This document shows positions 5,070-25,263 of a DNA stretch of 33,146 nucleotides, piece after piece (the first letter of the stretch is position 1; every line of letters starts with the position of its first letter). The notes under the pieces are model-generated. The model had not been told where the DNA came from, did not search any database, and saw nothing but the letters and a program-made list of their open reading frames with translations. Both the position numbers and the translations under genes were made by a program. The DNA is from Rhodospirillales bacterium RIFCSPLOWO2_02_FULL_58_16 (GTDB lineage: Bacteria; Pseudomonadota; Alphaproteobacteria; Rhodospirillales; 2-02-FULL-58-16). The stretch lies in assembly GCA_001830425.1 (NCBI GenBank), contig MIAA01000002.1, forward strand, positions 36,630-69,775, given 5' to 3'.

Positions 5070-8567
<3,498 letters not shown>

Positions 8568-9316: not shown

Positions 9317-9844
9317 TCATTGCTTCGCGCAGGGATTCATAACCTTGCTTTGGAACTTCTTTTGCAATTCGCCGACGTACGCCGCCAACGCCGCCAATTC
9401 CCTGGACTCCCAAGCCAGCGGCTTGGCCTCCATGGGCGCCACCATGCAGAACTGCACCATTTCATCCAAATGGACGGATTTCACCTTGCCCATCTCGGCC
9501 GCCATCGCCACGAAATGGGGATAAGGCTCGGCGAAGCCGGGCATGAACGCCTTGTTGTCTTCGTGACAACTGCTGCAAGACAGCCCGTTGGTGCTGAGTT
9601 TCTGGTCCTTGAACAGGCGTTCGCCCTCCTTGGCGAGTGAGGCGGGATCACCCTTAAAAAGGCTTGTCCCTGCCGGTCGGGTGACCAGTTTGGAGTCGAT
9701 CCCCGGCATGGCCGCACACGGATTTGCCGCCACGGGCGCACAAGGATTTGCCGCCATGGCGCCGGTCGCCGCCATTGCCGTTATCAGCGCCGCCGCCATA
9801 AACAAAAAGATGCGGCGAAGGGTATACTCGTTTCGGTTCATCAT
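9317..9844 (-). CDS. Exported monohaem cytochrome c with NPCA motifs
   Basis: Last gene of the 13-gene operon. 175 residues with a Sec signal peptide (about 1-31, ...ATGAMA|A). A single haem-c site CSSCH lies at C90-H94, and a downstream methionine (M101 in AFMPGF, or one in the later CMVAPME) is a candidate sixth ligand. Just after the signal peptide it carries NPCAPV and NPCAAM, and it ends NPCAKQ, motifs shared with the tiny neighbour at 9906-10109. The start was chosen at ATG 9844 (GAGG upstream); the frame continues upstream through the neighbour but without family-like sequence. It is probably a periplasmic electron carrier for the operon. No convincing U-tract terminator follows. Confidence 0.82.
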   Translation of the reverse strand: MMNRNEYTLRRIFLFMAAALITAMAATGAMAANPCAPVAANPCAAMPGIDSKLVTRPAGTSLFKGDPASLAKEGERLFKDQKLSTNGLSCSSCHEDNKAFMPGFAEPYPHFVAMAAEMGKVKSVHLDEMVQFCMVAPMEAKPLAWESRELAALAAYVGELQKKFQSKVMNPCAKQ

Positions 9845-9905
9845 GACAGGAATCCTCAAAAGACAAGGACCGGCCACCCTCCCGGGCGACCGGTCGCGGG
9901 TCCGG

Positions 9906-10109
9906 TTACTTTTTGGGAGCGCAAGGATTGCCGGCCTTGGGAGCGCAGGGATTTTCCGTCTTCGGAGCACACGGATTGGCGGCTTTCTTGTCCTCCATCG
10001 GCTTTGCGGCGCAAGGATTGGCGGTCTGGGCGAAGGCTCCGCCGGAACCGAGAGCGACGAGGCCGCCGACGGCGATGGCCAGAGCCGAGGCACGGATATA
10101 CTTGAACAT
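9906..10109 (-). CDS. Tiny exported protein with four NPCA-K repeats
   Basis: 67 residues with a strong GGAGGA ribosome-binding site 5 bases before ATG 10109. A clear Sec signal peptide (KYIRASALAIAVGG...GAFAQ) leaves a mature part of about 38 residues built from four NPCA(A/P)K units separated by short charged/Gly linkers. Four cysteines, one per unit and no haem motif, suggest metal binding, disulfide pairing or lipid-like attachment; this is inference. The same NPCA motif recurs in the next gene. I do not recognise a named family. Its position in a cytochrome operon suggests a periplasmic accessory, for example in metal or haem delivery or redox buffering, but nothing proves this. Confidence 0.75.
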   Translation of the reverse strand: MFKYIRASALAIAVGGLVALGSGGAFAQTANPCAAKPMEDKKAANPCAPKTENPCAPKAGNPCAPKK

Positions 10110-10190
10110 ACATTCCTCCATAAGTTACGACCGGGCGATATCAAAACCGCGCAGTCAGGTTCACCAGCCAAGACGGCATGGCATCGGTAA

Positions 10191-11861
10191 TCATACGCCT
10201 TCCTTATTGCTGATCGTCGAGGAGACTGCCGACCTCGCCTCGACCCAACGAACCAGCAGGTAAAGCCCGGCGGCGGTCAGCATAACAGCAAACAGAGCGT
10301 ATATGTAAACGCTTGCCGATGCCGGCGCCTCCAGCAGCACATAGCGCCAGGTTGACAGGCTCATGATCATTCCGTGTTCGCCGTTCGAGCCGTCCCAGGC
10401 GTTGACCGCCATGGGAATGAAGCGGCCCGGCTCAAACTGCACGTCGTTTTTGTCGCCGGTGTTGAGCGGACGCTTCATCACCATCGACCAGCGCCCCTGA
10501 TCCCAGACGGCCCTGGATACAACCTGTTGTTGCTCCTCGGCCTGGACCTTGGGAGGCTGGCTCCAGCCCCTGGAATTGGCCTCCTCCACCGCGTGACCGC
10601 CGGCGGCGTCAACATCCGACTTCCATACCCACAGATGAACGGCGCTGGATGAATCACCACGCACGAAATGAGGTTTCTTGGCGCTCTCGGGCGGCTTGAC
10701 GGGAAATTGCAGCGCCACTGCGTCACGGAAGGTCGCAAGTTGGCGCGGCACCATGCCGTTGGCCCGAACATAGGAATTAAAAGCGCCCGGAGCGCGAATA
10801 TCCTTAACGTCGATCTCCTTGTCCGAGGCATGAATGACATCCTTGAAGGGATCGCTCCATTCAATCAGGAAGGCGATCTCCTTGTCATTGTAGACGGCTC
10901 TGACAGTCGCCATCTCGATGCCGGGATTCTGCCAACGGGGAGCGGCCACTACTTGGCCGGTCAGGCGCACGTCCGTCGCCTCGGCGGCGGCCCATCTCGA
11001 ATCATCGGGCGCGTCGGGAACATCGCCCTCGACCTTGCGCACCAACAGAACCTGGCTGTCTGCCTCCTTGTGCTGTAGCGACTTGATAAAATTAGCCAGA
11101 TACCAGCGGTCGGTCTCGTTCAGCGTCTTGGCGAATGAGGGCATCGGCGTGCCGTTGATGCCGGTCGAGAACCGCATGAAAATGTCTTCGACCTCATTGC
11201 CGGCCTTGATCTTCCACGGCAGCGTGACGTTGCGGATACGGATCGGGAAGCCCCAGTCATCCTTGCGATCAAACGCTTTCTGGCCGTCGCCGCGCCCCAA
11301 CTTGCCGTGACATTCCCAGCACTTGGTTTTCTCGAAGATTTCTTTTCCCTTGGCGATGGATTCGGCGTCCAGGGACACTTTATCCTTAGGCAACGCCACC
11401 ACCTTGCCGGTCTTGACCGGGTCCAGAGACGGATCGTTGAATTCAGGGGCGAAGGTCTTAACATAGGCAATCACCGCCCATCGTTCGTCTTCGCTGAGTC
11501 CGTTCTTGATAACGTCGCTGTCGAAGGCCTGCATCCCCGTCCCCGAGAGTCCCCGGCTGACAGTGCGAAACAGATCTTCATTAGTCGGCAATTCGCCGCT
11601 TTGGGTAGTGCGGAACTTGAAAGTGCCGAGCGTGAAATCACGGGGCCGAGGGTCCATATAGGGTGAAGCCGGCCCCTCGCCGTCGCCGAGAAGCCCGTGG
11701 CAGAAACTGCACCGCTTGAAATAAATCAACTTGCCCTTATCCAACAATTCGGGCGTTTCAGGCGGCATCGGCATGGCGGGACGGTCGGCTGCCGCCGCCT
11801 CGCCGGTCGCCAGCGCAAGGCTCGCCATCATCACCATCGCCAGTAGCCATTTGCTAATCAT
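10191..11861 (-). CDS. Dihaem cytochrome c fused to ethylbenzene-dehydrogenase-type haem-b domain
   Basis: 556 residues. The start ATG overlaps the preceding stop (TGATG), so it is translationally coupled. Order: signal peptide (about 1-25), cytochrome c domain with CSFCH (C51-H55), second cytochrome c domain with CWECH (C181-H185), then an EB_dh-like domain (about 285-510). The last is the haem-b-binding fold of the gamma subunits of ethylbenzene dehydrogenase, selenate/chlorate reductases and nitrite oxidoreductase. A C-terminal transmembrane helix (about 520-542) follows, with a short cytoplasmic tail. The family precedent is a gamma subunit that passes electrons between a periplasmic molybdoenzyme and cytochromes; here it is fused to two haem-c modules and tethered to the membrane. 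The role in this system is inferred. Confidence 0.85.
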   Translation of the reverse strand: MISKWLLAMVMMASLALATGEAAAADRPAMPMPPETPELLDKGKLIYFKRCSFCHGLLGDGEGPASPYMDPRPRDFTLGTFKFRTTQSGELPTNEDLFRTVSRGLSGTGMQAFDSDVIKNGLSEDERWAVIAYVKTFAPEFNDPSLDPVKTGKVVALPKDKVSLDAESIAKGKEIFEKTKCWECHGKLGRGDGQKAFDRKDDWGFPIRIRNVTLPWKIKAGNEVEDIFMRFSTGINGTPMPSFAKTLNETDRWYLANFIKSLQHKEADSQVLLVRKVEGDVPDAPDDSRWAAAEATDVRLTGQVVAAPRWQNPGIEMATVRAVYNDKEIAFLIEWSDPFKDVIHASDKEIDVKDIRAPGAFNSYVRANGMVPRQLATFRDAVALQFPVKPPESAKKPHFVRGDSSSAVHLWVWKSDVDAAGGHAVEEANSRGWSQPPKVQAEEQQQVVSRAVWDQGRWSMVMKRPLNTGDKNDVQFEPGRFIPMAVNAWDGSNGEHGMIMSLSTWRYVLLEAPASASVYIYALFAVMLTAAGLYLLVRWVEARSAVSSTISNKEGV

Positions 11862-12838
11862 CAGTGAGACTCCGGTATGCGCGGCGTTTTCTGCGCGAAA
11901 TCGTACTCGGCCATGATGATCCGCCACCGCTCTTCCTCGGTAAGATTGAGTTTCCATTCCGGCATCGCCGAATCCCAGGGCGTAGCCTCGACCGGCAAGC
12001 CCGGCCCGCCGTTGCTGACGCGCCAGAATGTGTATCCCTGAACAATCGTCTCGATAGTGCCGTTGTCGGTGAAATTGATCGGCCGCAACTTGAAGCCGTC
12101 GGCCATAGGTCCGTCGCCCGACACGCTGTCGCCGTGACAGGGGCGGCAGTTCATGGCGTAAAGGGCGCGGCCCTCGAACAGCGTCTTCTCCAGCAACGCC
12201 GCCTTGGCGCTTTCTTTGCTTGAAGTTCCGGACTTGAGTTCAGCCAGATACTTCTTCATCGGCTCGGTGGGGATGAACCCAAGCGCCGGGCTGCCGGGAT
12301 TCTTCTTCCGCCACCGCTCGACATCGGGCATCACCTGCCGGATGAAGGCAGCCTCGCCGGCCTTGGCCTGCTGTACGAAAGCCTCGATATCGGCGTCGGC
12401 AGGGTTGGCCAGCGGATTCTCGACCGCCTCCATTTCCTTGGGAAAGTTCGACGACGGATGCTGGATGCGCAACGACGACGGGACCTCGAACCTTGGAACA
12501 GTAGCGTCGTAAACCTGCCAGCCGACCAGCGGCGGCAGCATCGCCATCACCGCCAGGCGCAGCTTCTTGCCGTATCCTCCTTCGATGAAGCGGCGTAGCG
12601 GACGCATGAATTCGTCAAGATTGTCGTCATTAAAAGTAACGAACAGGAACAGCGCCACCAGCGTCAGCACCATGTAGAACAACACCAGGGTGCCGGGCAC
12701 AGGCAAGGGAAACGGCATTCCGGTGATCTGCCTCGACGCCGCCGGGATTCCCCACTTGACCAGCGAGAAGACCGCCAGCAACGCCAGCACGATAGTCCCG
12801 AAACGACCTATCCTGAATCTTGCGATCTTCATCGTCAC
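11861..12838 (-). CDS. Membrane-anchored monohaem cytochrome c
   Basis: 325 residues from a GTG at 12838 (GTGA overlap with the previous stop); an ATG two codons later (12832) is an equally good start. Three predicted membrane helices (about 13-33, 47-68, 94-110) are followed by a periplasmic domain with one haem site CRPCH (C231-H235) and the context GDGPMADGF. The C-terminal part resembles class I cytochrome c. It is overlapped by its neighbours on both sides, so it belongs to a tightly coupled module with the CydA-like protein and the EB_dh fusion. Probable role: electron relay between the membrane subunit and periplasmic partners. Confidence 0.83.
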   Translation of the reverse strand: MTMKIARFRIGRFGTIVLALLAVFSLVKWGIPAASRQITGMPFPLPVPGTLVLFYMVLTLVALFLFVTFNDDNLDEFMRPLRRFIEGGYGKKLRLAVMAMLPPLVGWQVYDATVPRFEVPSSLRIQHPSSNFPKEMEAVENPLANPADADIEAFVQQAKAGEAAFIRQVMPDVERWRKKNPGSPALGFIPTEPMKKYLAELKSGTSSKESAKAALLEKTLFEGRALYAMNCRPCHGDSVSGDGPMADGFKLRPINFTDNGTIETIVQGYTFWRVSNGGPGLPVEATPWDSAMPEWKLNLTEEERWRIIMAEYDFAQKTPRIPESH

Positions 12839-13812
12839 TCGCCCTTCTGCATGATCATGTACGACAACACATCCTGGAAATCCTTGACGGTCATTGCCTC
12901 CGAAAGGTCGTCCGGCATCAGGCTTCTGGTCGGGTCTTGGGTGATTTCCTTGATCTCAACGCGCCTGATGGTGACTACTTCGCCGGCGACCTTGGCGATG
13001 TCGATCTCGTCGGGGGTCTCACGGGTTTTAAGGCCGGTGACCAGACCTCCGTTCTTGTCGGTCACCACATGTGTCTCGAAGCCCTTGGTGATGGCCTTGG
13101 TCGGCCTGAGAATTGCTTCCGAAATGTATTTGATGCCGCGCTTGCCGATTTCCGACAGGTCGGGTCCGGCCAGACCGGGTTTTTCGCCGCCCTTGACCAT
13201 ATGGCAAAAGGCGCAAGTGTCCTTAAATACGGCGGCGCCGTGGCCTGGGTCGCCGCCTCCGGCCGCCGCCGCCGCCTGGATTTTGTCATAGAACTTCTTA
13301 GATATCCCGCTCGGATTATTGAGCGCGTCGATGTCAACGTCGCCACCCTGACTTTGCAGGTAAGAAATCACCGCCTTGATTTCGTCAAGGCTGAGCGAAA
13401 TCGGCGGCGCGAAAACGACGGCCATCTCATTCTTGTAGCCTTCAACCAAAAAGGCGCCGGGATCGGCCAGGCTTTCGACCAGATAGTCAGTAGCGGTAAA
13501 AGGTTGCCCCGTCTTGTCCTTGCGATCCTTGGCGCGCTCAACGGCGCGCCCCCCCATCGGCAGCGGGAATTTGTCGCCGAACTGGCCGTGATTGGGACCA
13601 CGCACCGCGCTGCCCTGTCCTCCCATGCTGTGACAGGTATAGCAGCGGCCCTTGCCCCAATAGATGGCTTCGCCCCCTTCGGGGCTGACCTCGACGACGT
13701 TTGCCGCCTTCTTCTCGCCGCCGGTAAGGCCGGTGACCGAGTAGCCGACCCACAGGAACGTGGTCAGCACCAGCAGAAGGAAGACGAAGACCTTGCTAAC
13801 CGCGTTGGACAT
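12835..13812 (-). CDS. Dihaem cytochrome c with N-terminal membrane anchor
   Basis: 325 residues. One hydrophobic N-terminal helix (about 6-28), probably an uncleaved anchor or signal, is followed by two haem-c sites: CYTCH (C57-H61) and CAFCH (C200-H204). The first domain carries GRCYTCHSMGGQG and a large insertion; the second is followed by a GPDLSEIG motif typical of class I cytochromes. It lies 21 bp after the CydA-like gene. The arrangement (membrane subunit plus anchored cytochromes) recalls cytochrome c subunits that dock on oxidases or quinol-cytochrome c complexes. Function is inferred from position. Confidence 0.84.
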   Translation of the reverse strand: MSNAVSKVFVFLLLVLTTFLWVGYSVTGLTGGEKKAANVVEVSPEGGEAIYWGKGRCYTCHSMGGQGSAVRGPNHGQFGDKFPLPMGGRAVERAKDRKDKTGQPFTATDYLVESLADPGAFLVEGYKNEMAVVFAPPISLSLDEIKAVISYLQSQGGDVDIDALNNPSGISKKFYDKIQAAAAAGGGDPGHGAAVFKDTCAFCHMVKGGEKPGLAGPDLSEIGKRGIKYISEAILRPTKAITKGFETHVVTDKNGGLVTGLKTRETPDEIDIAKVAGEVVTIRRVEIKEITQDPTRSLMPDDLSEAMTVKDFQDVLSYMIMQKGE

Positions 13813-13833
13813 CTTGGCTTTCCCGTATGATTC

Positions 13834-15963
13834 TCATTCAGACTTCTCGCCGTGCTTGCCGGCATTGATGCCGCCCAACCAGAACATGAAGGCTACGGCT
13901 AGCAGGAACGTCAGGACCGCCAAACTTACTCCTTGCGTCATCGAGAAGTTGCTGAGCGTGAAGGACCAGTCGGAGGTGTCGCGCATGACGCCGAAGATAT
14001 GCCAGTCGCCGCGCAGGCTTGAGCGAATGAAACCCATCAGTCCCATATTCATGGTGATGATAAAGGTGAGCAGCATCAGCGCGTATTGGCTGCGCATGGT
14101 CATGTTGCCCCAACGCAACGGGCCGATTTCCTTGGCGCCCCGGAACAGGAACATATCAATGGCGGTGACCAGAATCAGGCAACTGATCAATTGCAGGAAC
14201 TGGCTGACCGCGACGTTACGCAGGAACGGCGAGGCCTTCTCCATCACCACGAAGCCATAAACGCCGAGGAAGACGGCGACGTTAAAGGCGGTGACGGCCA
14301 GATACAGCACCTGGGCCAACTTGCCCTTGTCCTTCAGCGCCAGACCGACTGCCAGCGCCGCAACGGCGCAATTGAACAACAGCAGATAGCCGACGGTGCG
14401 GAAGTACACGGCGCGATCAGCGGGCAAATCAAGGCCGGCCGGGTCCATCGTCAGCAGGGTCGCGGCATACTGGCCGACCAGCGTGATCGCCGCCGCGCCG
14501 GCCAGCGGAATCACGATTTTCGGCAGACGACCCTGCCGGCTGATGGGCACTACGTCGCCCTTGTTGCCCCGGCGGTAAAGCAGGAAGCTGAAAAAAGTGG
14601 ACAAAATGATCAGATTGACCACCGCGTTCTTGGCCGGCATCAAGCCGAGGTATTTCAGCGTCGGATGATACTGGCTGCCGCCCATGGCGCCCACTTCCTG
14701 GCCGGACAGCGGCAGATTGTGCGGGGTCAGCCAGACGGCGAAGCACACTATGATGACCCCCAGGATGTACTTGATGTACTTGTAATAACGCTCTGCTCCC
14801 GGAATGCGGGTCATGCCGCTCCACAGGTAGTAATTGCTGATCAGGAACAATGACCCGACCAGCATCGCCTGGATAATGAAGGTCCACGAGAAGTCGCCGC
14901 CCATCATGTTGTTGCCCATGACGGCGCTGGTCGAATAGACCTCGCGCCCCAGATAGTAGCCGGCGAAGGGCAGCGGAATCAGGGCGCTGATGGCCACGAA
15001 GTTGGCGATATAACCCATCCAGTCGTAGTGTGCCTTCTCCTCCATGGTCTTGGCGCCGATAAACTTGACAGCGGCATACGAGCCGGCGACCAGCCCGCCG
15101 AAAGCGAGGTTGCCGAGAATGCGATGAATGACGATGGGCGTGGCCAAGATGTTCTCAAAGGCCTGCCATGTGGTTCCGACGAACACGCCGTCCGTATCGA
15201 CGCCGACCGGACTCATCATGAATCCCGCCCAACTGTTGGCGAGTTGCATGATCGCCGTGCCGAAAATGTTGAGCTGGATGCCGATCATCACATGTACGGA
15301 CTTGGCGTCGCGCATAATCAGGAAGCCGGCGCCCGTCGGCATGATATAGAGAAGGGCGATCCAGACGCGGGTGTCGCCGCGCATTCCGTCGCCGAACGCT
15401 CCCACCAGCATCAAAGCGCCGATTGCCATGATCACTGCGCCCACTCCCTGGAAAACACGCCGCAGCGAAAGCGAAAACGGCTTGCGGTCGCTCAACCAGT
15501 CCCATCCGTAGTAGTAAAGATAGAGCGCGAAGGTCTCGCCGAAGAACAGCAGCGCATAGATGAACATGATGTCCTTGAAGATGCCCGCCATATAACCCAT
15601 GAAGGTCGGATAGAGAGTGAACAGGGCGAAGGCCAGCAACCCGCCGAAGGCCGCCGTGGTGGCATAGGCGATGCTGAGCAGGCTGGTGAATTCGTAGGCC
15701 AGTTTGTCGAACTTGGCGTCGTTCTGCTTCCAGCCGACGATCTCGATGATCACCGCAAACAGCGGCACACCCAGCACGAAGGCGGCGAAGAAGAGGTGCA
15801 TTTGCGCCAGGAACCAAACCAGACGCCGCGAATCGAGGCCCACGAACTGCCGATACTCATTGGGTTCGAGCGCAAAAGCCGGCCAGGCGGCCATCAGCGC
15901 TGCCGCCAGTGCGACGCCCATGATCAGCAGATTTCGACTCCTCGTCGTCCGGGCAGCGGTCAT
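13834..15963 (-). CDS. CydA-like (cytochrome bd family) large membrane protein
   Basis: 709 residues from ATG 15963, whose ATGA overlaps the stop of the upstream cytochrome gene; GGGGGAAG precedes it. About 16 hydrophobic helices, including a leading signal/TM segment. The N-terminal half matches cytochrome bd subunit I. H56 (in LAQMHLFF) aligns with the haem-b595-region histidine, E143 in FFGETFALYLYYYGW with the conserved helix glutamate, and H280 (PIVIHRI) with the b558 ligand; the SWAGFMMSPVGV segment is also typical. The C-terminal half has several extra helices and no CydB gene follows. I see no clear equivalent of the methionine b558 ligand (RxMxG motif). Similar bd-like proteins occur near molybdoenzymes in nitrite oxidisers. 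Quinol oxidation with cytochrome c, instead of O2 reduction, is a plausible alternative role. Confidence 0.85.
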   Translation of the reverse strand: MTAARTTRSRNLLIMGVALAAALMAAWPAFALEPNEYRQFVGLDSRRLVWFLAQMHLFFAAFVLGVPLFAVIIEIVGWKQNDAKFDKLAYEFTSLLSIAYATTAAFGGLLAFALFTLYPTFMGYMAGIFKDIMFIYALLFFGETFALYLYYYGWDWLSDRKPFSLSLRRVFQGVGAVIMAIGALMLVGAFGDGMRGDTRVWIALLYIMPTGAGFLIMRDAKSVHVMIGIQLNIFGTAIMQLANSWAGFMMSPVGVDTDGVFVGTTWQAFENILATPIVIHRILGNLAFGGLVAGSYAAVKFIGAKTMEEKAHYDWMGYIANFVAISALIPLPFAGYYLGREVYSTSAVMGNNMMGGDFSWTFIIQAMLVGSLFLISNYYLWSGMTRIPGAERYYKYIKYILGVIIVCFAVWLTPHNLPLSGQEVGAMGGSQYHPTLKYLGLMPAKNAVVNLIILSTFFSFLLYRRGNKGDVVPISRQGRLPKIVIPLAGAAAITLVGQYAATLLTMDPAGLDLPADRAVYFRTVGYLLLFNCAVAALAVGLALKDKGKLAQVLYLAVTAFNVAVFLGVYGFVVMEKASPFLRNVAVSQFLQLISCLILVTAIDMFLFRGAKEIGPLRWGNMTMRSQYALMLLTFIITMNMGLMGFIRSSLRGDWHIFGVMRDTSDWSFTLSNFSMTQGVSLAVLTFLLAVAFMFWLGGINAGKHGEKSE

Positions 15964-16493
15964 TTCTTCCCCCATGCGGTCAGGAACCCGGCAACCGCCA
16001 GGTATTCGGTGTCGCTGAATGAGTTTTCGGCTTCCGTCTTCTCGCAAAGACCGCCGCCGTCAGACATCCGCTTCGCCGCCTTCTTGGGCTTCGGCAGCGT
16101 CTCGGCATGGCAAACGGCGCAGGCATCGGCGAACGCCTTGCCGCCTGTAATCGTGCGGGCGTAAGCCAGCGCCGCCTTTTGCTCGGTCGGACTGATGACA
16201 TCCTTCCAGGCCGGCATCGGGTCTTTTCCGTCATTAATGGTTTTCAGCAACTCGGCATCCTTTTTTTCAAGCCGTTCGCCCTTGGCAAAGCTGGGCGCCC
16301 CTTCGACCAGGGCGGCGCCGTCGTAGCCGTGGCAGACGGCGCAGTTGGTCTCGAAGACATCCCGCGCCGCCGCCAAGCGGGAGTAGGCTTCCGCAGACCC
16401 CATCGAACCGGCGGCGGCTTCCGTCGCAGCTACCGAAAGAAGGAAAATCACCGCCGGCCCTTTCAGCATCATTTGACGATTCATTAGTGGCAT
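15960..16493 (-). CDS. Exported dihaem cytochrome c
   Basis: 177 residues with a Sec signal (about 8-28, ...VAATEAAAG). Two haem-c motifs CAVCH are present at C51-H55 and C125-H129, each in its own small class-I-like domain. The start was chosen at ATG 16493 with GGGAAG five bases upstream; a second ATG at 16484 overlaps the HEAT gene stop (TAATG) and is possible. It ends in an ATGA overlap with the CydA-like gene. Probable periplasmic electron shuttle between the molybdoenzyme side and the membrane module. Confidence 0.85.
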   Translation of the reverse strand: MPLMNRQMMLKGPAVIFLLSVAATEAAAGSMGSAEAYSRLAAARDVFETNCAVCHGYDGAALVEGAPSFAKGERLEKKDAELLKTINDGKDPMPAWKDVISPTEQKAALAYARTITGGKAFADACAVCHAETLPKPKKAAKRMSDGGGLCEKTEAENSFSDTEYLAVAGFLTAWGKK

Positions 16494-18631
16494 TTTGTCT
16501 TCCCGTTCGCGCCGGGTTCGGCGGCGCGCATGGCCACCAGCGTTTCGATGCATATCCCATGGAGATGTTCGCTGCTGCAATCGCCGGCGATTGCCAGCAA
16601 CCGTCGTTCGGCATCAATGGAAGATATCCTGGCAAGCGTCCGCACCACCTCGCCATGAGTCTCATCGGAGCCGTTAAACAAGAGCAAAAGCAGTTGATCG
16701 CCGATCTCCGGCCAGCTCGATTCCGGCCCGATCACCGCCAATGCGGCCCGGCAGATGCCTCTGTCCTCGTCGCCGAGAGCGCGGATGAGGAGAGCCGGCG
16801 GCGCCTTGTCGCCCATCGCCTTCAGCGCGTCAACCGCACACCGTCGAATCATCGGATCGCTGTTATCAAGCAGGATTTTAACGACGCTTTCGACCGCTTC
16901 TCCGCCGGACAGTTCCGCCAACGCGCCGGCGGCGGCGATCCTTACATCGCGTGATTCGGCGCCGAGACCGGCCCTTGCCAGCGGCAAGGCATTTCGCTCA
17001 CCGAGACGGCCCAGAGACCGCAAAGCCGCCGCCCGCAATCCGTCGTCAGAAGACGCGGCGGCGGCGGAGAGGGCAACCAAAACATCCGGTCCCGGCTGTC
17101 CTAAATTACCGAGAAGATGCACCGCCGCGATGGTTTGCTGACCGGTATTGGCCGGGAGTTCGGATTTTTCGCCCGTCTCCGGCTCGCGCCGGGGGTTTGC
17201 CGCCAGGATCGAGGCCAATGTGGAGGAAGCCGGATCGCCCGCTTCCTCATCCTCCGTTCTCTCTGTTTCCGGCGGCGTCGGATCGGCGTTCCCGCCATTG
17301 GCCGGAAGTCGGATGGCCAAGCGGTCAACCTCGTCTTGCACCATACGCGACAGCAACGATACGACCTCGGTCGGAGCCGCCTTGGCCAGAACCGACATGG
17401 CGGCGACCGCCACATGCAAACTCGGGTCCCGGACAGCCGACCGGAGAGCGGCGACTGCGGCGTCATGCTGACCGGACGGAGCAGCAGGCGTCAGCGAAGC
17501 CTTCAAACCGTTGACGGCGGCCAGTCGTATTTCATCGTCCTCCTGGGGAGTTGTCAGGATAGACAACAAACGCGACTGACCGCCCGCTCCACCTATATTC
17601 CCCAGAGCTTCCACTATTTCACGTCGCAAGCGCACGGCATCTTTTTGATCGAGAAGGGACAGCAGGGCTGCCTCATCGGTCTCGCCTCCGCACCGGCCAA
17701 GCAGCGTAATTATATGTCGGCGCACTTTACCGTCGGCGCCGACCGGCATCTTCCGCAGATCGGCGGCGGCCTTCGGGCCGGCCACCGTCACCAGCGCCGT
17801 CGCGGCGGCGCACTGCACATCCGGATCGTGATCCGCCAACCGCCCGGCAATATCACCGGCGGTTACCGGCCCCCAATGAGCCAAGGCGCGAATAACCTCG
17901 ACTCGAACAGACGGATCGGCATCGCCGAGGGCGGCGGTCAAACCGCCGACGACATCAGCGTAAACCGGTGAATCAGGGAAGCGCCCGGCGTCCACCTCCA
18001 CCAGCGCCTTGGCGGCGCATCGGCGTCCCGAACGACCGCCACCGCTCAATTGGGAAAGAAGAAAGTCCGTGGCCAGGGGATAGCCCAGGCGGGCGAGAGC
18101 GTAAAATCCGGCTTCCTGAAGATGATGGTTGTTCTCGTCCGCCACCGCCTTGATCACCGCCTCGACTGCGCGTTCGTCGCCGCAGTTGCCGAGCGCTTTC
18201 AGAGCCAGACTCTCCACCTCGCTTGAAACGGGATAGTCGAGATCATGGCAACGATAATCAAGATCGGGATATCCCGCCCCCCGCAAGCAACGGATAAGCG
18301 GATCAATTGCGCCGGCGCCGAGGAGGTTGGAGAGAGCCTTTACGGCTTCGATGCGGACGCCTCCGTCCTGGTCCCTCTCCAGACGATCCACGAGAGAACC
18401 CAGCGCCTCGACCGCACGCAGGCGACCGAGCGAGGCTGCCGCCTCCATCCGCACGTTGGGGTCGTCATCGCCAAGCAAGGCGACAAGATGGCGAACTACC
18501 TCGGCGTCGCCGTCCGTTTCCGCCAACGCCCTCGCCACCGCGCACCGCGCTATTGAATCCCGCCCGTGAGCGACGGTGGCGCAAAGACGCACAAAACCAT
18601 CTGATCCCATCAAGGTCATACTATCCACCAC
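16484..18631 (-). CDS. Large HEAT-repeat protein
   Basis: 715 residues from GTG 18631 (an ATG at 18619, after GGTGG, is the main alternative). It is built almost entirely of about 30-residue helical repeats with motifs such as DPNVRMEAAASLGRL, VRIEAVKALSN and RDVRIAAAGALAEL, interrupted near 450-500 by an acidic, Pro/Glu-rich linker. No signal peptide or membrane helix, so it is probably cytosolic, unlike nearly every other product of the operon. HEAT scaffolds bind proteins. Placed directly after the molybdoenzyme gene, it could be a maturation or assembly chaperone for the enzyme before Tat export. No enzymatic motif is visible. Confidence 0.85.
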   Translation of the reverse strand: MVDSMTLMGSDGFVRLCATVAHGRDSIARCAVARALAETDGDAEVVRHLVALLGDDDPNVRMEAAASLGRLRAVEALGSLVDRLERDQDGGVRIEAVKALSNLLGAGAIDPLIRCLRGAGYPDLDYRCHDLDYPVSSEVESLALKALGNCGDERAVEAVIKAVADENNHHLQEAGFYALARLGYPLATDFLLSQLSGGGRSGRRCAAKALVEVDAGRFPDSPVYADVVGGLTAALGDADPSVRVEVIRALAHWGPVTAGDIAGRLADHDPDVQCAAATALVTVAGPKAAADLRKMPVGADGKVRRHIITLLGRCGGETDEAALLSLLDQKDAVRLRREIVEALGNIGGAGGQSRLLSILTTPQEDDEIRLAAVNGLKASLTPAAPSGQHDAAVAALRSAVRDPSLHVAVAAMSVLAKAAPTEVVSLLSRMVQDEVDRLAIRLPANGGNADPTPPETERTEDEEAGDPASSTLASILAANPRREPETGEKSELPANTGQQTIAAVHLLGNLGQPGPDVLVALSAAAASSDDGLRAAALRSLGRLGERNALPLARAGLGAESRDVRIAAAGALAELSGGEAVESVVKILLDNSDPMIRRCAVDALKAMGDKAPPALLIRALGDEDRGICRAALAVIGPESSWPEIGDQLLLLLFNGSDETHGEVVRTLARISSIDAERRLLAIAGDCSSEHLHGICIETLVAMRAAEPGANGKTKCH

Positions 18632-18686
18632 ACCCGCCTGTCTTAACCTGATTAATTGTCCTGTTCACCGATCGGATCGGAGATGA

Positions 18687-18745: not shown

Positions 18746-18760
18746 ATCACCCAGGGATGA

Positions 18761-21454
18761 CTATCCGATATCCCTCCGCTTGAACGTCATCTCTGCGAAG
18801 GTGGACTTATACGGCGATTCGCCCAACTTCTTGATCGTCCCGGATGCAATCTTGAACCGGTAGTTCTGCGTTACCGGGTCCGGAACACGCGGAGTGATGT
18901 TGTTGGCGGGAGAGTCCTTCCTGAGGAAGTAAGTGAAGGCCACGCCCTTTTTTACCGATGGAGTCACCAAGGCAACGGCGGTGAATTGGCCGGTAACGGT
19001 CTTGATATGCCCGCGCTTCGTCAGTCCCGTAAAGGACATGTCGTCGCCCTTGACGCCGAGGTTAAAGTCCTTCTGGACCGGCACTCTTGTCGACTCGATG
19101 GAGACCATATCGCCGGATTCCACGCCTCGCGTCTTGGCGTCGTCGGGATTGATTTCGATGAAATTGACCGGCCAGCGCTGCTGGATGTAGGCCCGGCGTT
19201 GAAGATCATCGAAGCCTGACTGCCAAACTTCATTGATGCGGCCGTTGCTGATCCACAACTCGCCGTCCTTGGGACTCATGTATTCGTAAAAGTCTTTCCA
19301 GAAGCCCCAAGGCGCCTTCAGCATGTTCAGCTTGCCGGTCTGCGAGCCGAACGAGGTGAGGCGCTTGTTGAGAATCGTCGGCCCCTCCGGACCGGTCGCC
19401 GGCAAGGTAAGATGACGATTGTAATCATGCAGACGCTTGGTTTCGACGATCTTGCCGTCATCAAGCAGCAATGGGCATTGCAGGCCGGTGGTGCCGTAAG
19501 AGCGAAGCAGATCATGCGCCTTGACGCCCTTGGCCTTGGCAACGACCTTGATCGCGTTGTAATCCTCGCGTCCGCCACGACTGAACCGGCAGGATTCCTC
19601 GAACACATCGTTTGATTCCTTCCAGTCGTAACCCTCGAAGCCCATCTTCTTGGCGAACATCGACACGATCATCCAGTCGGGCTTGGCGTCGCCCGGAGCA
19701 TCATAGAACTTGGAATAAAGACGGATGCGCCGCTCGCCGTTGCTGCGGGTGAAGTCGTGTTCGCCCCAACCCGACGCCGGCAGTATGATGTCGGCGTATT
19801 GGCTTCCTATCGGATCAACCATATAGATATCCTGGTTGACCATCACCATGCCGCCCGAGTCGGTTCGCTTGATCAGGGTGTCGATGATTGATTGCTTGTC
19901 GGTATTGCGGACCTGATTCGGGTTGAGCTTGGTCTGGCGCTTGAAGGCATCCTCAAGCGCCGTACTGCCGGCCATCGCCTGTATCCAGGTCGTTCCGACC
20001 ACATAGGCAAAGCGGACATTGCCCGATTCGACCCAGCGGTCGAGGTCAAGGCGATCACGGCGGCGGCCCGGATGCTTGTAAGGCGACTTCATATCGGGAT
20101 AAGGCCCGCCGGCGGCGCCGCCGCGCTGATGTCCGCCGAGGCGGGTCATAACGGAGCCGGGGCGACCGCCGACTCCCAGGATCACGCCGAGCGTGCCGAT
20201 GGAAACGGTGTTGAGGTAATTGTTCGACCAGTAATTGCCTTTCTCGATAGCGATGGTGGTCTTGACCCGCTGGCCGTTAGCCTTGGGCTTGGCCATCATC
20301 TCCGCCGCCATCAGTATCTTGGCGGGGTCGATGCCGGCGATCTTGGCCGCCACCTCCGGCTTGGATTCTTCCTGTTCCAGCAGCCACTTCTTCCAATCAT
20401 CGTAACTCTTGACCTGGAAATTGCCCCAGGTGGTGCGCCACTGCCAGGGCGTATTGCGGGTGCCTTGGCCGAAGCCGGAATCCGTCTCCCAGAAATTGTT
20501 CACCATCTTGGCGATGAATTCCTTGTCCTCCCAGCCGTTCTCAAGGATGACGCGCTGGATGGCCAGATGAACAGGAGTGTCGGAGCCGGGGTTGACGTCG
20601 ATATAAAGGCCGCCGTTCTTTTCGACGAACGCCGCGCCCGCAGTGCGACGCGGGTTGACCATAATGACCTTGGTCTTGTTCTTCTGAATGCCTTTCAGTA
20701 TCCATTCGTTCCATACGACGGTCTTGGTCTCGAACGGATCGGTGCCGGAGATCAGTATGGTATCGGCCAGCGCAAAGTCTTCGTAAGCGCCGCCGAAGAT
20801 GTCATAGCCGATATCGGTCCAGCCCGGCACTGAATCGACTATCGAAGGATGGTCGTGCTCGGCCACCGCCGGAGTGCCGATGCTCTTGAAGGCCAGCTTA
20901 GTCAGGGCGTAGGTATTCTCGTAGAACTGATAGCTGAAGAACTTGAGCGCCCAGGCGCTCTCACCATGCGTCTCGATCACATGCTTGCTGACGCCCGCCA
21001 TGACATCAAGAGCCAAATCCCAGGACACCGGCGTCAGGACGCCGTTGACCCGAAGTAGCGGCGTCTTCAGGCGATCCGCCGTCTGCCCCTTGGAATTGTA
21101 GACTTTTTGGGCGATACAGCCGCCACGGATGCTGTGGTCGCCGCCGACGTTGACCACCTTGGCGTCGGGATCGGCGACAACGACTATGTTATGCAGTTTA
21201 CCGTTGTAAACGGCCTGGGTGTACTGGTTGGGACCGACCCAGCCGCCCTGCAACGGGCCGAGGGTGTAGTCGCGCCCCAGCGCATTCTGGTTCTTCTTCG
21301 GTCCACCGTCGGGAGTTCCCGTCGGCCAACGAAAGACCTTGTAGCCGCAGGCGACGATGCAATAATCGCAGGCGGTGGTGATGACATCGGCGTTCTTGGG
21401 CGGCAGCGGCGCCTTGTCGGCCGGCTTGAACTTCGGAGTTGACATGTTTGACAT
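18761..21454 (-). CDS. idrA: Molybdopterin oxidoreductase, AioA/IdrA family (iodate reductase-like catalytic subunit)
   Basis: 897 residues; GGGGGGAA precedes ATG 21454. Periplasmic bis-MGD molybdoenzyme of the arsenite oxidase/iodate reductase branch of the DMSO reductase family. The N-terminal cluster motif is C29-x2-C32-x3-C36 followed by S108 in DHSIRGG where other families have a fourth Cys, as expected for a [3Fe-4S] cluster. Typical segments include VSWDLALDVMA, FETKTVVWNEW, NGERRIRLYSKF and a C-terminal molybdopterin-binding domain. There is no export signal, consistent with co-export on the Tat signal of its Rieske partner 12 bp upstream. The Rieske plus two dihaem peroxidases context points to iodate reductase (IdrA) over arsenite oxidase. 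Substrate assignment is inference from family and neighbourhood. Confidence 0.8.
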   Translation of the reverse strand: MSNMSTPKFKPADKAPLPPKNADVITTACDYCIVACGYKVFRWPTGTPDGGPKKNQNALGRDYTLGPLQGGWVGPNQYTQAVYNGKLHNIVVVADPDAKVVNVGGDHSIRGGCIAQKVYNSKGQTADRLKTPLLRVNGVLTPVSWDLALDVMAGVSKHVIETHGESAWALKFFSYQFYENTYALTKLAFKSIGTPAVAEHDHPSIVDSVPGWTDIGYDIFGGAYEDFALADTILISGTDPFETKTVVWNEWILKGIQKNKTKVIMVNPRRTAGAAFVEKNGGLYIDVNPGSDTPVHLAIQRVILENGWEDKEFIAKMVNNFWETDSGFGQGTRNTPWQWRTTWGNFQVKSYDDWKKWLLEQEESKPEVAAKIAGIDPAKILMAAEMMAKPKANGQRVKTTIAIEKGNYWSNNYLNTVSIGTLGVILGVGGRPGSVMTRLGGHQRGGAAGGPYPDMKSPYKHPGRRRDRLDLDRWVESGNVRFAYVVGTTWIQAMAGSTALEDAFKRQTKLNPNQVRNTDKQSIIDTLIKRTDSGGMVMVNQDIYMVDPIGSQYADIILPASGWGEHDFTRSNGERRIRLYSKFYDAPGDAKPDWMIVSMFAKKMGFEGYDWKESNDVFEESCRFSRGGREDYNAIKVVAKAKGVKAHDLLRSYGTTGLQCPLLLDDGKIVETKRLHDYNRHLTLPATGPEGPTILNKRLTSFGSQTGKLNMLKAPWGFWKDFYEYMSPKDGELWISNGRINEVWQSGFDDLQRRAYIQQRWPVNFIEINPDDAKTRGVESGDMVSIESTRVPVQKDFNLGVKGDDMSFTGLTKRGHIKTVTGQFTAVALVTPSVKKGVAFTYFLRKDSPANNITPRVPDPVTQNYRFKIASGTIKKLGESPYKSTFAEMTFKRRDIG

Positions 21455-21466
21455 GGATATTCCCCC

Positions 21467-22021
21467 CTAACCCTTGAGATTGTCGTAGCGACCGTAGATC
21501 AGACCAAGCATCCCGACCGCATAGATGTTGTCGTTCTCGGTCTCCAGCAGCACCTGCGGCAAACTTTCCGTGCCGTGTCCGCTGATGATGATGCCGTGCC
21601 TAGTAAGATCAAAGGTTGACTGGTGAAACTGGCATGGGCCGAGTGCTTGGTGCATGGGCTGGAAAGACTTCCCCAAATCACCGCCCATATGGGTGCAAAG
21701 GGTGTTAAAGGCGACCACATCGCGCCCCGTCCCGATGCCGCCGCCGGCCGGCGTGCCGAGCTTGACCAGCACGCTGTTGGAGTTTTTGTTCTTGTCGGGA
21801 TAGTTGAAAGCCATGGGCTTGTTGGTCTCAAGCTCACTCAACTTGCCGATCAGGGCGCGCGGGTAACTGACCGTTTCGGCCGCAATTGCCCGTCCGCCCA
21901 TTCCCGGAATGCCGGTCAGAAGAATGACCCCGCCGACCGCTGCGCCGCCGCCCCGCAGGAACGCCCTGCGGCTGAGGCACTCTTGATGGGCGTCGTGATA
22001 TTCATGTGATGTAGATGACAT
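21467..22021 (-). CDS. idrB: Rieske [2Fe-2S] small subunit with Tat signal (IdrB/AioB type)
   Basis: 184 residues. The start is ATG 22021 with GGGAG seven bases upstream. A twin-arginine signal SRRAFLRG (R18, R19) and hydrophobic stretch precede a Rieske fold. Cluster ligands are C109-T-H111 and C130-Q-F-H133. The two extra cysteines that form the disulfide of bc1-type Rieske proteins are replaced by G114 and F132. Electrons would pass between the molybdoenzyme [3Fe-4S] cluster and periplasmic cytochromes. It lies directly upstream of the catalytic subunit, in the same order as the small and large subunits of arsenite oxidase. Confidence 0.88.
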   Translation of the reverse strand: MSSTSHEYHDAHQECLSRRAFLRGGGAAVGGVILLTGIPGMGGRAIAAETVSYPRALIGKLSELETNKPMAFNYPDKNKNSNSVLVKLGTPAGGGIGTGRDVVAFNTLCTHMGGDLGKSFQPMHQALGPCQFHQSTFDLTRHGIIISGHGTESLPQVLLETENDNIYAVGMLGLIYGRYDNLKG

Positions 22022-22032
22022 GGTGATCTCCC

Positions 22033-23253
22033 TCACTTCGTGCCGATGGATGACAACAGGGTCTCAAGACCGATACGCTTGGCCTGCGCCTGGGTCAGGC
22101 CGGCGACATCCGCCTTGGCGGCGTATGCCGGAACCTTGGGGACCGCCATGGTGATCTGCTCACCGCTGATTTCGGTGAGGAAAGCAACCAGCGCGGCCTT
22201 TTCGTCCTTGGTCAGATTGAGCGGTTTCAAAACCGTGGTCTTGTTGCCGACCATCTTGGTGAACTCGTTTTCGCCGCCGCCCTTGTTGTAGAATTCGACG
22301 ACCTCATCAAGAGTGAAAAACTGGCCGGCGTGCATGTAAGGCGCCGTGTATTTCAGGTAGCGCAGGGGCTGGGTGCGGAACTTGCCCATGTCGCTCTTGT
22401 ATTTGGTCTGGAAATAAAGACCGGGATCATCCTTGAAGTCGCGGTAGCCGGTCTCGGTAATTCCCTTTTGATACAGTTCCCAACGATAGGTGATGGTGTT
22501 CAATCCGACATCCGCGAACTCCTGCGGACGCGGAACGCCGAGGTTGTGATATTTCTCATCGGTCAGCATCGGTCCGTTATGACATTCGATGCAGTTGGCC
22601 TTGCCGGTAAACAGCTCCATGCCCTTGACGGCGGTCGCCGACAGCGCCGCCTTGTCGCCGCCGAGATAGCGGTCGAGCGGCGAGTCCTTCTGGGTCAGCG
22701 TTTCGCGCTCGAAGACGGCAATGGCCAGCCAGGCGTCATTGAGAACCGGGTTGAGCGTTCCGAACGCCGCCTTGAACATCTTGTCGTATTCCGGCACCTG
22801 GCGCAGACGCCACTCCATCACGTCGTCCTCGCCGTTGCCGGCCACGGCGCCCTGCGCGGCGGTGCGCGCCTGCGCCTCCAGGCTGCCGTCCGAGCCTTCC
22901 CAGAACAGCTTGCTGAGATAGCCGGTGTTGACCACCGTCTGGCAGTTACGCCAGTGAACGGTGCCCGGATAGCCCCGGCAAATCGGTTCATTAAAACCCC
23001 AGCCCTGCTTGGGATCATGACAATCGGCGCACGACAGGCTGGCGTCGCCGCTCAACTTGGGATCGAAGTAGAGCAACTTGCCCAACTCGACCTTGGCCGG
23101 CGTATTCAGGTTATCCGTCGGCTGGGGCACCGGCCCCAGCGGCATCAACTGCTTTTTGGTCATCTCGGCCAGCGCGTCGGAAGCGCCTGACGCCAAAAGC
23201 ACCCCGGCGGCGACTATGCCGGAAAGGATTATTCTTCGCGTGTTGAATCTCAT
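22033..23253 (-). CDS. Dihaem cytochrome c peroxidase/MauG family protein (IdrP-like)
   Basis: 406 residues from ATG 23253, with GGAGGGACG just upstream. Sec signal (about 1-29, ...ASDALA|E). Haem sites CADCH (C75-H79) and CIECH (C221-H225) have the spacing of bacterial dihaem peroxidases. FNEPICRGYPGTVHWRNCQT and LRYLKYTAPYMHAGQF match the family core. Iodate reductase clusters encode two such proteins, IdrP1 and IdrP2, proposed to remove H2O2 or reactive iodine intermediates. Which of the two this one corresponds to is not decided. It lies 12 bp before the Rieske start. Confidence 0.85.
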   Translation of the reverse strand: MRFNTRRIILSGIVAAGVLLASGASDALAEMTKKQLMPLGPVPQPTDNLNTPAKVELGKLLYFDPKLSGDASLSCADCHDPKQGWGFNEPICRGYPGTVHWRNCQTVVNTGYLSKLFWEGSDGSLEAQARTAAQGAVAGNGEDDVMEWRLRQVPEYDKMFKAAFGTLNPVLNDAWLAIAVFERETLTQKDSPLDRYLGGDKAALSATAVKGMELFTGKANCIECHNGPMLTDEKYHNLGVPRPQEFADVGLNTITYRWELYQKGITETGYRDFKDDPGLYFQTKYKSDMGKFRTQPLRYLKYTAPYMHAGQFFTLDEVVEFYNKGGGENEFTKMVGNKTTVLKPLNLTKDEKAALVAFLTEISGEQITMAVPKVPAYAAKADVAGLTQAQAKRIGLETLLSSIGTK

Positions 23254-23269
23254 CGCACGTCCCTCCCCC

Positions 23270-24460
23270 CTAATTCTTGACATTCAGCCAATCCTTGATC
23301 GGCTGATATTTCTGGGACACCACGACCGGCGTGTCGGTGACCGGCATGGCGCTGCTTAAGGCTTCAAGAAAGGCTATCAGATCGGACTTCTCGCCGCCCG
23401 ACAGTCCCAGCGGCTTCAATTCAGTCGCCAACGGATCATCGTGGCCACCGCCCTGGTTGTAGAATTCCACCACGTCGGCCAGGGTGGCCAACATGCCGTT
23501 GTGCATATAAGGCGCGGTGTACTTGAGTTCGCGCAGGGTCGGCGTAATGAACTTGCCGACGTCAGCGACGTTCTTGCTGACGGTGTAGTAGCCGACATCG
23601 CGCCGCCACACATGCGGCTTGGGCACGCCGTGATTGTCGATCAAGGACTGATAGGTCAGGTGCCGGACCGGATTCTTGAACACCTCCATGTTCTCCGGCA
23701 CGCCGGTGTTATGCGGAGCGCCGTCTGAGAAATAGGCGCCGTTATGGCACGAGCTGCATTTACCCTTGCCCTCGAACACGGCGCGGCCGCTCTGCGCCGC
23801 TGATGACATCTTACCGGCATCGAAAGGCGCATCCTTGGAAACCAGCGTTTCCAGGTAGGCGATCAAGGCGTTGCGGGCATAGGGCGAGGTGCAGTCTTTC
23901 TCGTCCTTGAAGGCTTCCTTGCACAAACGCACATATTCCGGGTCCTGCTTCATGCGCTCATGCAGGACGCGCATGTCGAGGTTCATCATGGTGGTTTCGG
24001 TGATCATGTCACGGATGACATCGTTCATGTCGGCCCCCATGCGACCGTCCCAGCTCCAGCCGACGTTCTTGAAATCGGATTTGTAGACGGCATTGACAAG
24101 CGTGGGAGCGTTACGGAAGTGATCAGTGCCGGGATAGGCCTTCGACAACGGCATGCCGTCGCCAAAACCCTTGGCCGGATCGTGACAGGTGGCGCAACTG
24201 ATGGCGCCGTCGCCGGAAACGCGGGCATCGTAGAACAGCCGCCGACCCATCTCCACCTTCGCCGGTTCCTGCGCCTTGCGGGCGGCCAGGGGACCGAGGA
24301 GCAGAGGATCAACCTTGGGAGCCTCCTTGGCGGCAGCCGGGGCGGAAGCCCCCGCCGCCGGAGCTGCGCCGCCGGTCTCGGAACCGGTGCAGCCGGCGCC
24401 CGCCAGCGCCGCAGCTCCCATAAACAGAACGGGTAGTATCTTTGCAGTAAATCGCCTCAT
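23270..24460 (-). CDS. Dihaem cytochrome c peroxidase/MauG family protein, possible lipoprotein (IdrP-like)
   Basis: 396 residues from ATG 24460 with an AAGGGGGGG ribosome-binding site. The signal region ends ...AALAGAGC24, which could be a relaxed lipobox, followed by an Ala/Pro-rich linker (about 25-50) typical of membrane-tethered periplasmic proteins. Haem sites are CATCH (C89-H93) and CSSCH (C235-H239); the family core LRELKYTAPYMHNGML is present. It is a clear paralogue of the next gene, with the two adjacent and 16 bp apart. Family function is peroxide reduction using cytochrome or cupredoxin electrons; the role here is inferred from the Idr-like context. Confidence 0.85.
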   Translation of the reverse strand: MRRFTAKILPVLFMGAAALAGAGCTGSETGGAAPAAGASAPAAAKEAPKVDPLLLGPLAARKAQEPAKVEMGRRLFYDARVSGDGAISCATCHDPAKGFGDGMPLSKAYPGTDHFRNAPTLVNAVYKSDFKNVGWSWDGRMGADMNDVIRDMITETTMMNLDMRVLHERMKQDPEYVRLCKEAFKDEKDCTSPYARNALIAYLETLVSKDAPFDAGKMSSAAQSGRAVFEGKGKCSSCHNGAYFSDGAPHNTGVPENMEVFKNPVRHLTYQSLIDNHGVPKPHVWRRDVGYYTVSKNVADVGKFITPTLRELKYTAPYMHNGMLATLADVVEFYNQGGGHDDPLATELKPLGLSGGEKSDLIAFLEALSSAMPVTDTPVVVSQKYQPIKDWLNVKN

Positions 24461-24477
24461 GTCACCCCCCCTTATTA

Positions 24478-25263
24478 TCAGTTGGAAAAGACGAAATTCG
24501 CGTCAACCTTGCCGCCTTGAGGCACGGTTAATTTCACTTCCTTAAGCCCGTAGCGCGGATGCCACGCCTTCACGGTGTGGGTTCCCGGTGGAACGCCGTC
24601 GAGCGAGAATGTTCCGTCTTCGCCCACGACCTCCACATAGGGATGATCGGGCGCCATCAGGAAACCGAACATGAAATTGTGGGCCTCGCAGTTGATCGAG
24701 ACGAACGGCGAGCGCCGGGGTTTCAACTCCTGCTCGATATCGCCGGGTTCGGGCTGGCCGAAATTGAACATCGTGCGCTTGACGATGTTCCCGGTCTCGA
24801 CGCCGATCATCTCGCGGGTGTTGATGTTATGCAGAACGCTCGGCGGGTCGCTGTGACGCACGACGATCGAACCCGGACGTATCAATTGCGCCCAGGGACG
24901 GAACCGGCAGCCCTTCTGCTCGATCACATACTTGCCGTCTTTGGGCGCAGTCCACTTCTTGCCCTTGTCGATGCCCTCAATAAAAACAAAGACGCCCCGC
25001 AAGGCGTCATCCTTGACGTCCACCCACACCACCTCACGGAAACCCTCGCCGCACACATCGGGGTTCTTGGTGATAGTGATCTGCTCAACGGCGTCGGCGG
25101 GCAAGGGGCCGGAAAACGTCACCTTGCCCTTGACCGAGCCGCCTCCCGCCACATCGCCCTCTTCATAGGCGGCGGCGGGGAAACAGAACAGGGCCACGGC
25201 AAGCGGCGCCGCGCCCGCAATCATGCAAGTAAGTTTCGTGTAAATGTGTTTCGGAGATTTCAT
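24478..25263 (-). CDS. Exported cupredoxin-like/CarboxypepD-regulatory-like protein
   Basis: First gene after the sigma54 promoter; 261 residues. Sec signal (about 1-32, ...CFPAAA|Y). The central region has a plastocyanin-like ligand pattern: H145 in VLHNIN, then C192-x2-H195-x2-M198 in NCEAHNFM, consistent with a mononuclear copper site. A C-terminal beta-sandwich (VPPGTHTVKAWHPRYG, about 215-260) resembles the carboxypeptidase regulatory-like fold. Similar proteins are annotated as methylamine-utilisation or plastocyanin-like proteins. A likely role is a copper electron carrier, possibly the donor to the two dihaem peroxidases that follow. Confidence 0.8.
   Translation of the reverse strand: MKSPKHIYTKLTCMIAGAAPLAVALFCFPAAAYEEGDVAGGGSVKGKVTFSGPLPADAVEQITITKNPDVCGEGFREVVWVDVKDDALRGVFVFIEGIDKGKKWTAPKDGKYVIEQKGCRFRPWAQLIRPGSIVVRHSDPPSVLHNINTREMIGVETGNIVKRTMFNFGQPEPGDIEQELKPRRSPFVSINCEAHNFMFGFLMAPDHPYVEVVGEDGTFSLDGVPPGTHTVKAWHPRYGLKEVKLTVPQGGKVDANFVFSN

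Follow-up and report, generated by a model that had tools for sequence, protein, structure and literature searches.

A predicted Idr-type molybdoenzyme encoded in one operon with a bd-like cytochrome module resembling that of nitrite oxidizers

Introduction

Idr has been proposed as a marker of iodate respiration in oxygen minimum zones. The idrABP1P2 genes of Pseudomonas sp. SCT and Denitromonas sp. IR-12 lie among poorly conserved neighbors, and the cluster is said to be without a dedicated quinone oxidoreductase (PMC8692401). The parent family is that of AioAB, which has [3Fe-4S] and Rieske subunits like those of Idr.

A different set of genes, coding for a bd-like membrane protein, an alt-NxrC protein, mono- and diheme cytochromes c and a cupredoxin, has so far been known from nitrite-oxidizing and anammox bacteria only, accompanying NXR in Nitrospina, Kuenenia and Nitrospira (PMC3578206; bd-like_3 and bd-like_4 in PMC6606698). 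The bd-like protein of Nitrospina has been proposed to work like alternative complex III (PMC3578206), while those of Nitrospira have been proposed as oxidases (PMC6606698).

Here we analyze a stretch of 33,146 nucleotides (the window) from the contig MIAA01000002.1 of Rhodospirillales bacterium RIFCSPLOWO2_02_FULL_58_16, in which proteins of both kinds are predicted from a single operon.

Results

Organization of the operon

Open reading frame calls on the window place 13 minus-strand genes between positions 9317 and 25263 (Table 1). Their intergenic distances range from -97 to +129 nt, the majority being overlaps or gaps of less than 25 nt. In the direction of transcription the genes code for a cupredoxin, IdrP2, IdrP1, IdrB, IdrA, a HEAT protein, a diheme cytochrome c and CydL, followed by a diheme c, a monoheme c, an EB_dh-diheme c protein, an NPCA peptide and a SoxA-like monoheme c. 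Our recount gives twelve CXXCH motifs (2+2+2+2+1+2+1) and agrees with the preliminary description of the locus, which had reported the same total and 13 closely spaced, co-directional genes. For three of the cytochrome genes the listed long reading frames begin 5' of the likely starts. The gene order recurs in dozens of genomes and is therefore beyond chance.

The earlier gene list holds for the Idr set, the HEAT protein, the CydA-like protein, the cytochromes and the NPCA peptide; it had left the first gene unnamed. Sequence and structural model identify the predicted product of this gene as a type-1 copper protein: the copper ligands H145, C192, H195 and M198 are invariant across 72 homologues, and its modelled structure (pLDDT 89.4) finds matches in pseudoazurin, amicyanin and plastocyanin. 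No signal peptide and no transmembrane segment were found in the translation of the HEAT protein. The alt-NxrC-like protein matches EB_dh (2.1e-21), Cytochrom_C and TIGR03477. The gene for the SoxA/TsdA-like monoheme c is rare among related loci.

Table 1. Predicted features of the operon and its upstream flank, with positions in the window
Feature	Positions	Strand	Evidence
Sensor histidine kinase (Cache/HAMP/HATPase); true start may be internal	26957..29794	-	Pfam
NtrC-type sigma-54 response regulator	25591..26982	-	Pfam
Possible sigma-54 promoter TGGCATGGGGATTGC, upstream of operon	25411..25425	-	position only
Cupredoxin, exported, C-terminal CarboxypepD_reg-like domain	24478..25263	-	invariant Cu ligands; model
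IdrP2, diheme peroxidase-like	23270..24460	-	CCP_MauG 1.3e-37; 2 CXXCH
IdrP1, diheme peroxidase-like	22033..23283	-	CCP_MauG 1.3e-37; 2 CXXCH
IdrB, Tat-exported Rieske subunit	21467..22036	-	TIGR02694 116.7 bits, above cut-off; RR at residue 23
IdrA, molybdoenzyme catalytic subunit, without signal peptide	18761..21454	-	TIGR02693 above cut-off; Idr clade II 100/100
HEAT-repeat protein	16484..18631	-	HEAT_2 1e-62; position kept in most linked loci
Diheme cytochrome c; ATG near 16493 taken as start	15960..16493	-	Cytochrome_CBB3; in most clade II loci
CydL, bd-like polytopic membrane subunit	13834..~15975	-	CydA-like fold; conserved His/Glu
Membrane-anchored diheme cytochrome c	12835..13812	-	TIGR02603, Cytochrom_C; one N-terminal TM segment
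Membrane-anchored monoheme cytochrome c	11861..12838	-	Cytochrome_CBB3; two N-terminal TM segments
alt-NxrC-like: two cytochrome c domains and EB_dh haem-b domain, C-terminal TM	10191..~11861	-	
71-aa exported peptide with NPCA repeats	9906..10121	-	translation
SoxA/TsdA-like monoheme c, trimmed start, NPCA repeats	9317..~9844	-	PF21342 4.4e-13 (SoxA-TsdA)

Identity of the molybdoenzyme

We placed the catalytic subunit in trees of 24 rows (with bootstrap) and 57 rows. The four-gene type was represented by IdrAs from Azonexus, Thiothrix and Vibrio plasmids and from four further genomes (one on a truncated contig); the tested reducers SCT, IR-12 and DN11 are not among the rows by name. In the careful 24-row tree the split between Idr and Aio is supported at 100/100, and the IdrA of the window falls outside the Aio clade, in a 100/100 clade with gamma-, beta- and other alphaproteobacterial sequences and one from a Dehalococcoidia MAG. 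The enzyme is thus, as judged from its sequence, of the Idr type and not AioA, bearing out the assignment made in the preliminary description. Aio neighborhoods seen in this study have neither the peroxidases nor the membrane module.

Forty-four residues are invariant across the Idr rows and missing from all four Aio rows, while no aligned IdrA position separates the module-linked from the four-gene type. By the numbering of the AioA arsenite site, the glutamate is replaced in Idr, mainly by serine, and the other three site residues (H, R, H) are retained. The closest solved structures to IdrA are those of AioA. As judged by motif and hydropathy, IdrB carries a Tat signal, IdrA none, and IdrP1 and IdrP2 Sec-like signals. 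IdrP1 and IdrP2 accompany IdrA wherever the contig permits. The window therefore resembles the described idrABP1P2 clusters (PMC8692401) in the four genes, their order, an Idr-clade IdrA and a Tat signal on IdrB only, and differs from them by the cupredoxin gene before and the membrane and cytochrome block after. The order P2, P1, B, A, singled out earlier as meriting comparison with known clusters, proves to be the standard one for idr (PMC10989891).

The three retained arsenite-site residues would also fit a clade II enzyme that is Idr-like but misnamed and acts on another oxyanion such as arsenite, nitrite or selenate. We regard this as highly improbable in view of the replaced glutamate, the 44 Idr-specific residues, the constant presence of the peroxidase-like proteins and the regulators common to four-gene idr (see below).

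CydL and the membrane module

CydL is a polytopic protein of 713 residues. Its match to Cyt_bd_oxida_I is confined to residues 74-191 of the reading frame, in the N-terminal part, and its structural model (pLDDT 76.6, pTM 0.77, moderate confidence) aligns with CydA over nearly the whole length (Z 29.6, 351 residues, rmsd 3.4). The next structural family is alternative complex III, with ActC at Z 18.0 (5% identity) and ActF at Z 16.9. We compared residues between the Idr-linked copy, the second copy described below and relatives from anammox, KSB1 and Nitrospirae loci. H60 (with one exception), H228, H284, H316, H419, H437, H659 and E147 are conserved, and the histidines are putative haem ligands. 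The anammox, KSB1 and Nitrospirae proteins are 50-57% identical to CydL and have the same set of histidines; the Idr-linked module, like theirs, is usually duplicated nearby.

The operon holds the bd-like subunit, the diheme c, the monoheme c, the EB_dh alt-NxrC protein and the cupredoxin, the same protein set as in the NXR clusters. On sequence grounds the downstream block is no set of generic cytochromes but matches the NXR-associated module of Nitrospira, Nitrospina and anammox bacteria, here beside Idr, so that the membrane arm in itself, earlier raised as perhaps undescribed, is a known one (PMC3578206, PMC6606698). The two settings differ in the partner, a member of the type II DMSO reductase family in the NXR clusters and IdrABP1P2, of the AioA family, in the window, and in the HEAT protein and extra cytochromes that the window adds.

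CydL has in common with CydAB the CydA fold and an N-terminal His and Glu, but it is much longer, matches in sequence at the N-terminus only, stands amid c cytochromes and is without CydB, no family match to which was found among the operon proteins. With alternative complex III it shares the structural match and the arrangement of a membrane subunit with periplasmic cytochromes; no sequence match was found between CydL and Act proteins, and scans of the operon found no ActB-like iron-sulfur protein and no multihaem ActA. The fold, the conservation of H60 and E147 within the CydA-aligned region and the oxidase proposal for Nitrospira (PMC6606698) raise the alternative that the module serves for terminal reduction of O2, sharing only its regulation with Idr as a low-oxygen alternative sink. 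The missing CydB makes this quite unlikely in our judgement, as do the description of the same module type in strictly anaerobic anammox bacteria, the haem-copper oxidase family genes that the genome of the window already holds, and the tight linkage of the module to a reductase and not to other oxidase genes.

Distribution and history of the linkage

Scanning named GTDB genomes with the CydL alignment returned 80 loci. CydL is of the Idr type (about 60-82% identity) at 66 of them; at 44 of the 66 the contig extends 6 kb or more upstream, and IdrA lies there in 42 of the 44, counting loci that were picked by CydL similarity and are phylogenetically non-independent. The dedicated, conserved CydA-like/EB_dh arm that the preliminary description had suspected is thus borne out by co-occurrence of the downstream genes with IdrA. 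In one of the two exceptions (L066) another gene block intervenes before the contig ends; L113 shows IdrA beyond such a block. The other (L119) has a type II molybdoenzyme (alpha fragment, beta, gamma and chaperone) and a 16-haem cytochrome upstream, and its 'delta' MAG also has an Idr-linked copy (L106). In a planctomycete (locus L140), genes for type II gamma and beta subunits come after the module, the arrangement one would expect of NXR.

Linked loci occur in alpha-, beta-, gamma- and 'delta'-proteobacterial MAGs, most carriers being draft MAGs, and further genomes of the same order share the synteny of the window. Isolate names suggest an origin of carriers in an oxygen minimum zone, Saanich Inlet and groundwater. 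Most linked loci have a second module copy downstream; that of the window is separated, on another contig (G000:C16, L050). Of the four-gene Idr genomes, four were tested: three lack CydL altogether, and one encodes no more than a distant copy of the second type. IdrA and CydL distances are correlated (r 0.54, 0/2000 permutations). An apparent HEAT-CydL fusion in L105 was rejected as an out-of-frame reading.

Neither the module-linked nor the four-gene IdrAs form one clade (AU p 3.6e-5 and 3.5e-75, respectively). A single origin of the linkage on the IdrA tree is rejected by the AU test, and since the linked IdrAs are not monophyletic, the linkage is old or repeated: these sequences suggest that it was either ancestral and lost in lineages including the four-gene types, or gained repeatedly. 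The cupredoxin gene precedes idrP2 in nearly all clade II loci and lies between the HEAT gene and cydL in clade III; the operon of the window has the clade II order. The backbone of the CydL tree is poorly resolved. In one locus (L072) an IdrA of clade II stands with a CydL resembling those of clade III, which may reflect swapping.

Regulators and genomic context

The histidine kinase upstream of the operon is 48-51% identical to the kinase beside idr on the Azonexus and Thiothrix plasmids, and the NtrC protein is 60% identical to the one beside four-gene idr on the same plasmids. In a tree of 18 rows with a small background sample, this NtrC groups with those of Azonexus and Thiothrix (four-gene) and of the linked loci L078 and L105 (SH-aLRT 99). 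The kinase likely regulates the operon, and its occurrence with NtrC in both linked and four-gene idr suggests one shared inducing signal. The candidate sigma-54 promoter has one mismatch to TGGCAC-N5-TTGC; such matches are not above chance across the window. The tRNA-Ser adjoining the operon was considered as an island site, but its 3' end is not repeated within the window or in the flanking stretches examined.

RuBisCO is present in the genome of the window and in 21 of 50 linked genomes. DsrA is above cut-off in 25 of the 50 and was not found in the genome of the window. Neither autotrophy nor sulfur oxidation is upheld by these counts as a common carrier trait. The genome of the window further encodes the C-terminal domain of a cytochrome b, which would fit bc1. 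None of its five PF00384 proteins is NXR-like by family scans (one being NuoG-like by context), and no 16S gene was found in it.

Discussion

Because Idr shares its operon with genes for a membrane electron-transfer module, it is probably connected to the respiratory chain by a route of its own. Reading sequences and models together, we consider it reasonably probable that this route is a dedicated arm bringing electrons from quinol to the periplasm for the reduction of iodate by IdrAB. IdrAB would be a periplasmic molybdoenzyme served by its own membrane electron-transfer complex, made up of CydL, the diheme c, the monoheme c, the alt-NxrC-type EB_dh/diheme c protein and the soluble cupredoxin. 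CydL would most likely react with the quinone pool of the membrane, electrons would travel through the haem and copper proteins to IdrB and IdrA, IdrA would reduce iodate, and IdrP1 and IdrP2 would clear peroxide by-products, the upstream kinase/NtrC pair probably switching the operon on. In this scheme we infer complex formation, reactivity with quinone, direction of flow and iodate as the substrate.

Several observations argue for such an arm: the clean Idr/Aio split combined with the lack of fixed differences between linked and four-gene IdrAs; the near-constant presence of IdrA at CydL loci and the correlation of their distances; the CydA fold of CydL with ActC and ActF as next family; the same module beside type II molybdoenzymes in the planctomycete and 'delta' MAGs; and the regulators in common with four-gene idr clusters. 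The complex III-like proposal for the bd-like protein (PMC3578206) and the description of idr without its own quinone oxidoreductase (PMC8692401) point the same way. Against it, canonical quinol-binding residues are reported missing in bd-like proteins (PMC3578206), the bc1-consistent cytochrome b may make a second quinol route redundant and the known partners of the module, the NXRs of nitrite-oxidizing and anammox bacteria, run oxidatively.

The last point bears on direction. An Idr-type enzyme might oxidize iodide or another anion in the periplasm, with the module delivering electrons to O2, or to quinone by reverse transport, as has been proposed for NXR. Such an oxidative chain would suit the published association of the module with nitrite oxidizers (PMC3578206, PMC6606698), its usual occurrence in two copies, as in Nitrospira, and the RuBisCO of the window's genome and of other carriers. 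The IO3-/I- couple lies near +0.67 V at pH 7. It is too positive for easy reduction of c cytochromes or quinone, making iodide oxidation via c cytochromes thermodynamically hard. RuBisCO is moreover not detectable in most linked genomes, the frequency of DsrA would point to sulfur as donor, and IdrA has no fixed differences from the four-gene type. We judge the oxidative chain unlikely. Its lithotrophic form, a hitherto unrecognized complex in which the Idr enzyme and the nitrite-oxidizer module would let these uncultured inhabitants of oxygen minimum zones and aquifers oxidize an iodine species or another high-potential anion and drive reverse electron transport, seems to us clearly improbable. 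We favor the reductive direction, and with it the quinol-fed arm, on the strength of the Idr identity, the shared regulators, the structural kinship with alternative complex III, the published complex III-like proposal and the DsrA and RuBisCO counts.

In the openly accessible literature that we searched, no paper joins iodate, Idr and bd-like cytochromes. The suggestion of an undescribed respiratory (or reverse) chain thus survives for the union of Idr with such an arm and falls for the arm itself: the parts are known, and their combination, its breadth and its conservation were not found described in the literature searched.

The linked loci form a large exception to the published poor conservation around idr (PMC8692401), and the conserved supercluster suggests one specific path by which electrons could reach Idr. 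Since Idr is here joined to a module considered a hallmark of nitrite oxidizers, finding bd-like and alt-NxrC genes in a genome does not by itself prove that nitrite is oxidized, and the function of the module becomes testable in a second chemical setting.

Genes flanking the operon and further copies of the membrane module

NPCA repeats are common to two adjoining products at the end of the operon, the small exported peptide and the SoxA-like cytochrome. No duplicate of the 3' end of the tRNA-Ser(gct) gene was found in the window or in the flanking stretches examined.

Elsewhere in the genome, the second copy of the bd-like/alt-NxrC module is accompanied by a cytochrome b protein with one CXXCH and by USP-PCP_red, radical SAM-PCP_red and amine-oxidase-like genes. 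The neighbours of the ten-CXXCH cytochrome encode an iron-sulfur protein, a MopB enzyme and a Nitrate_red_del-type chaperone. Two copies of the module were also found in a single MAG, Deltaproteobacteria bacterium GWC2_42_11.

Features of the window and of related loci
Feature	Location
Cache-domain chemoreceptor, near operon	window 1424-3574
Second sigma-54 activator, near operon	window 5070-6452
tRNA-Ser(gct), just past operon end	window 8645-8734
SoxA-like cytochrome, NPCA repeats	window 9317-9844
Small exported NPCA-repeat-rich peptide	window 9906-10121
Second module copy, same genome	L050:7275-19508 (G000:C16)
NapC/NrfH-like cytochrome (ten CXXCH) and neighbours	L059:5133-10648 (G000:C20)
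Module copy adjoining Idr, GWC2_42_11	L106
Module copy adjoining type II DMSO reductase set and 16-haem cytochrome, GWC2_42_11	L119

Possible mixed ancestry of one locus

At the module-linked locus L072, the catalytic subunit IdrA falls in clade II, the type found in the window, whereas the CydA-like subunit CydL lies near the clade III rows, suggesting that the superclusters have exchanged parts.
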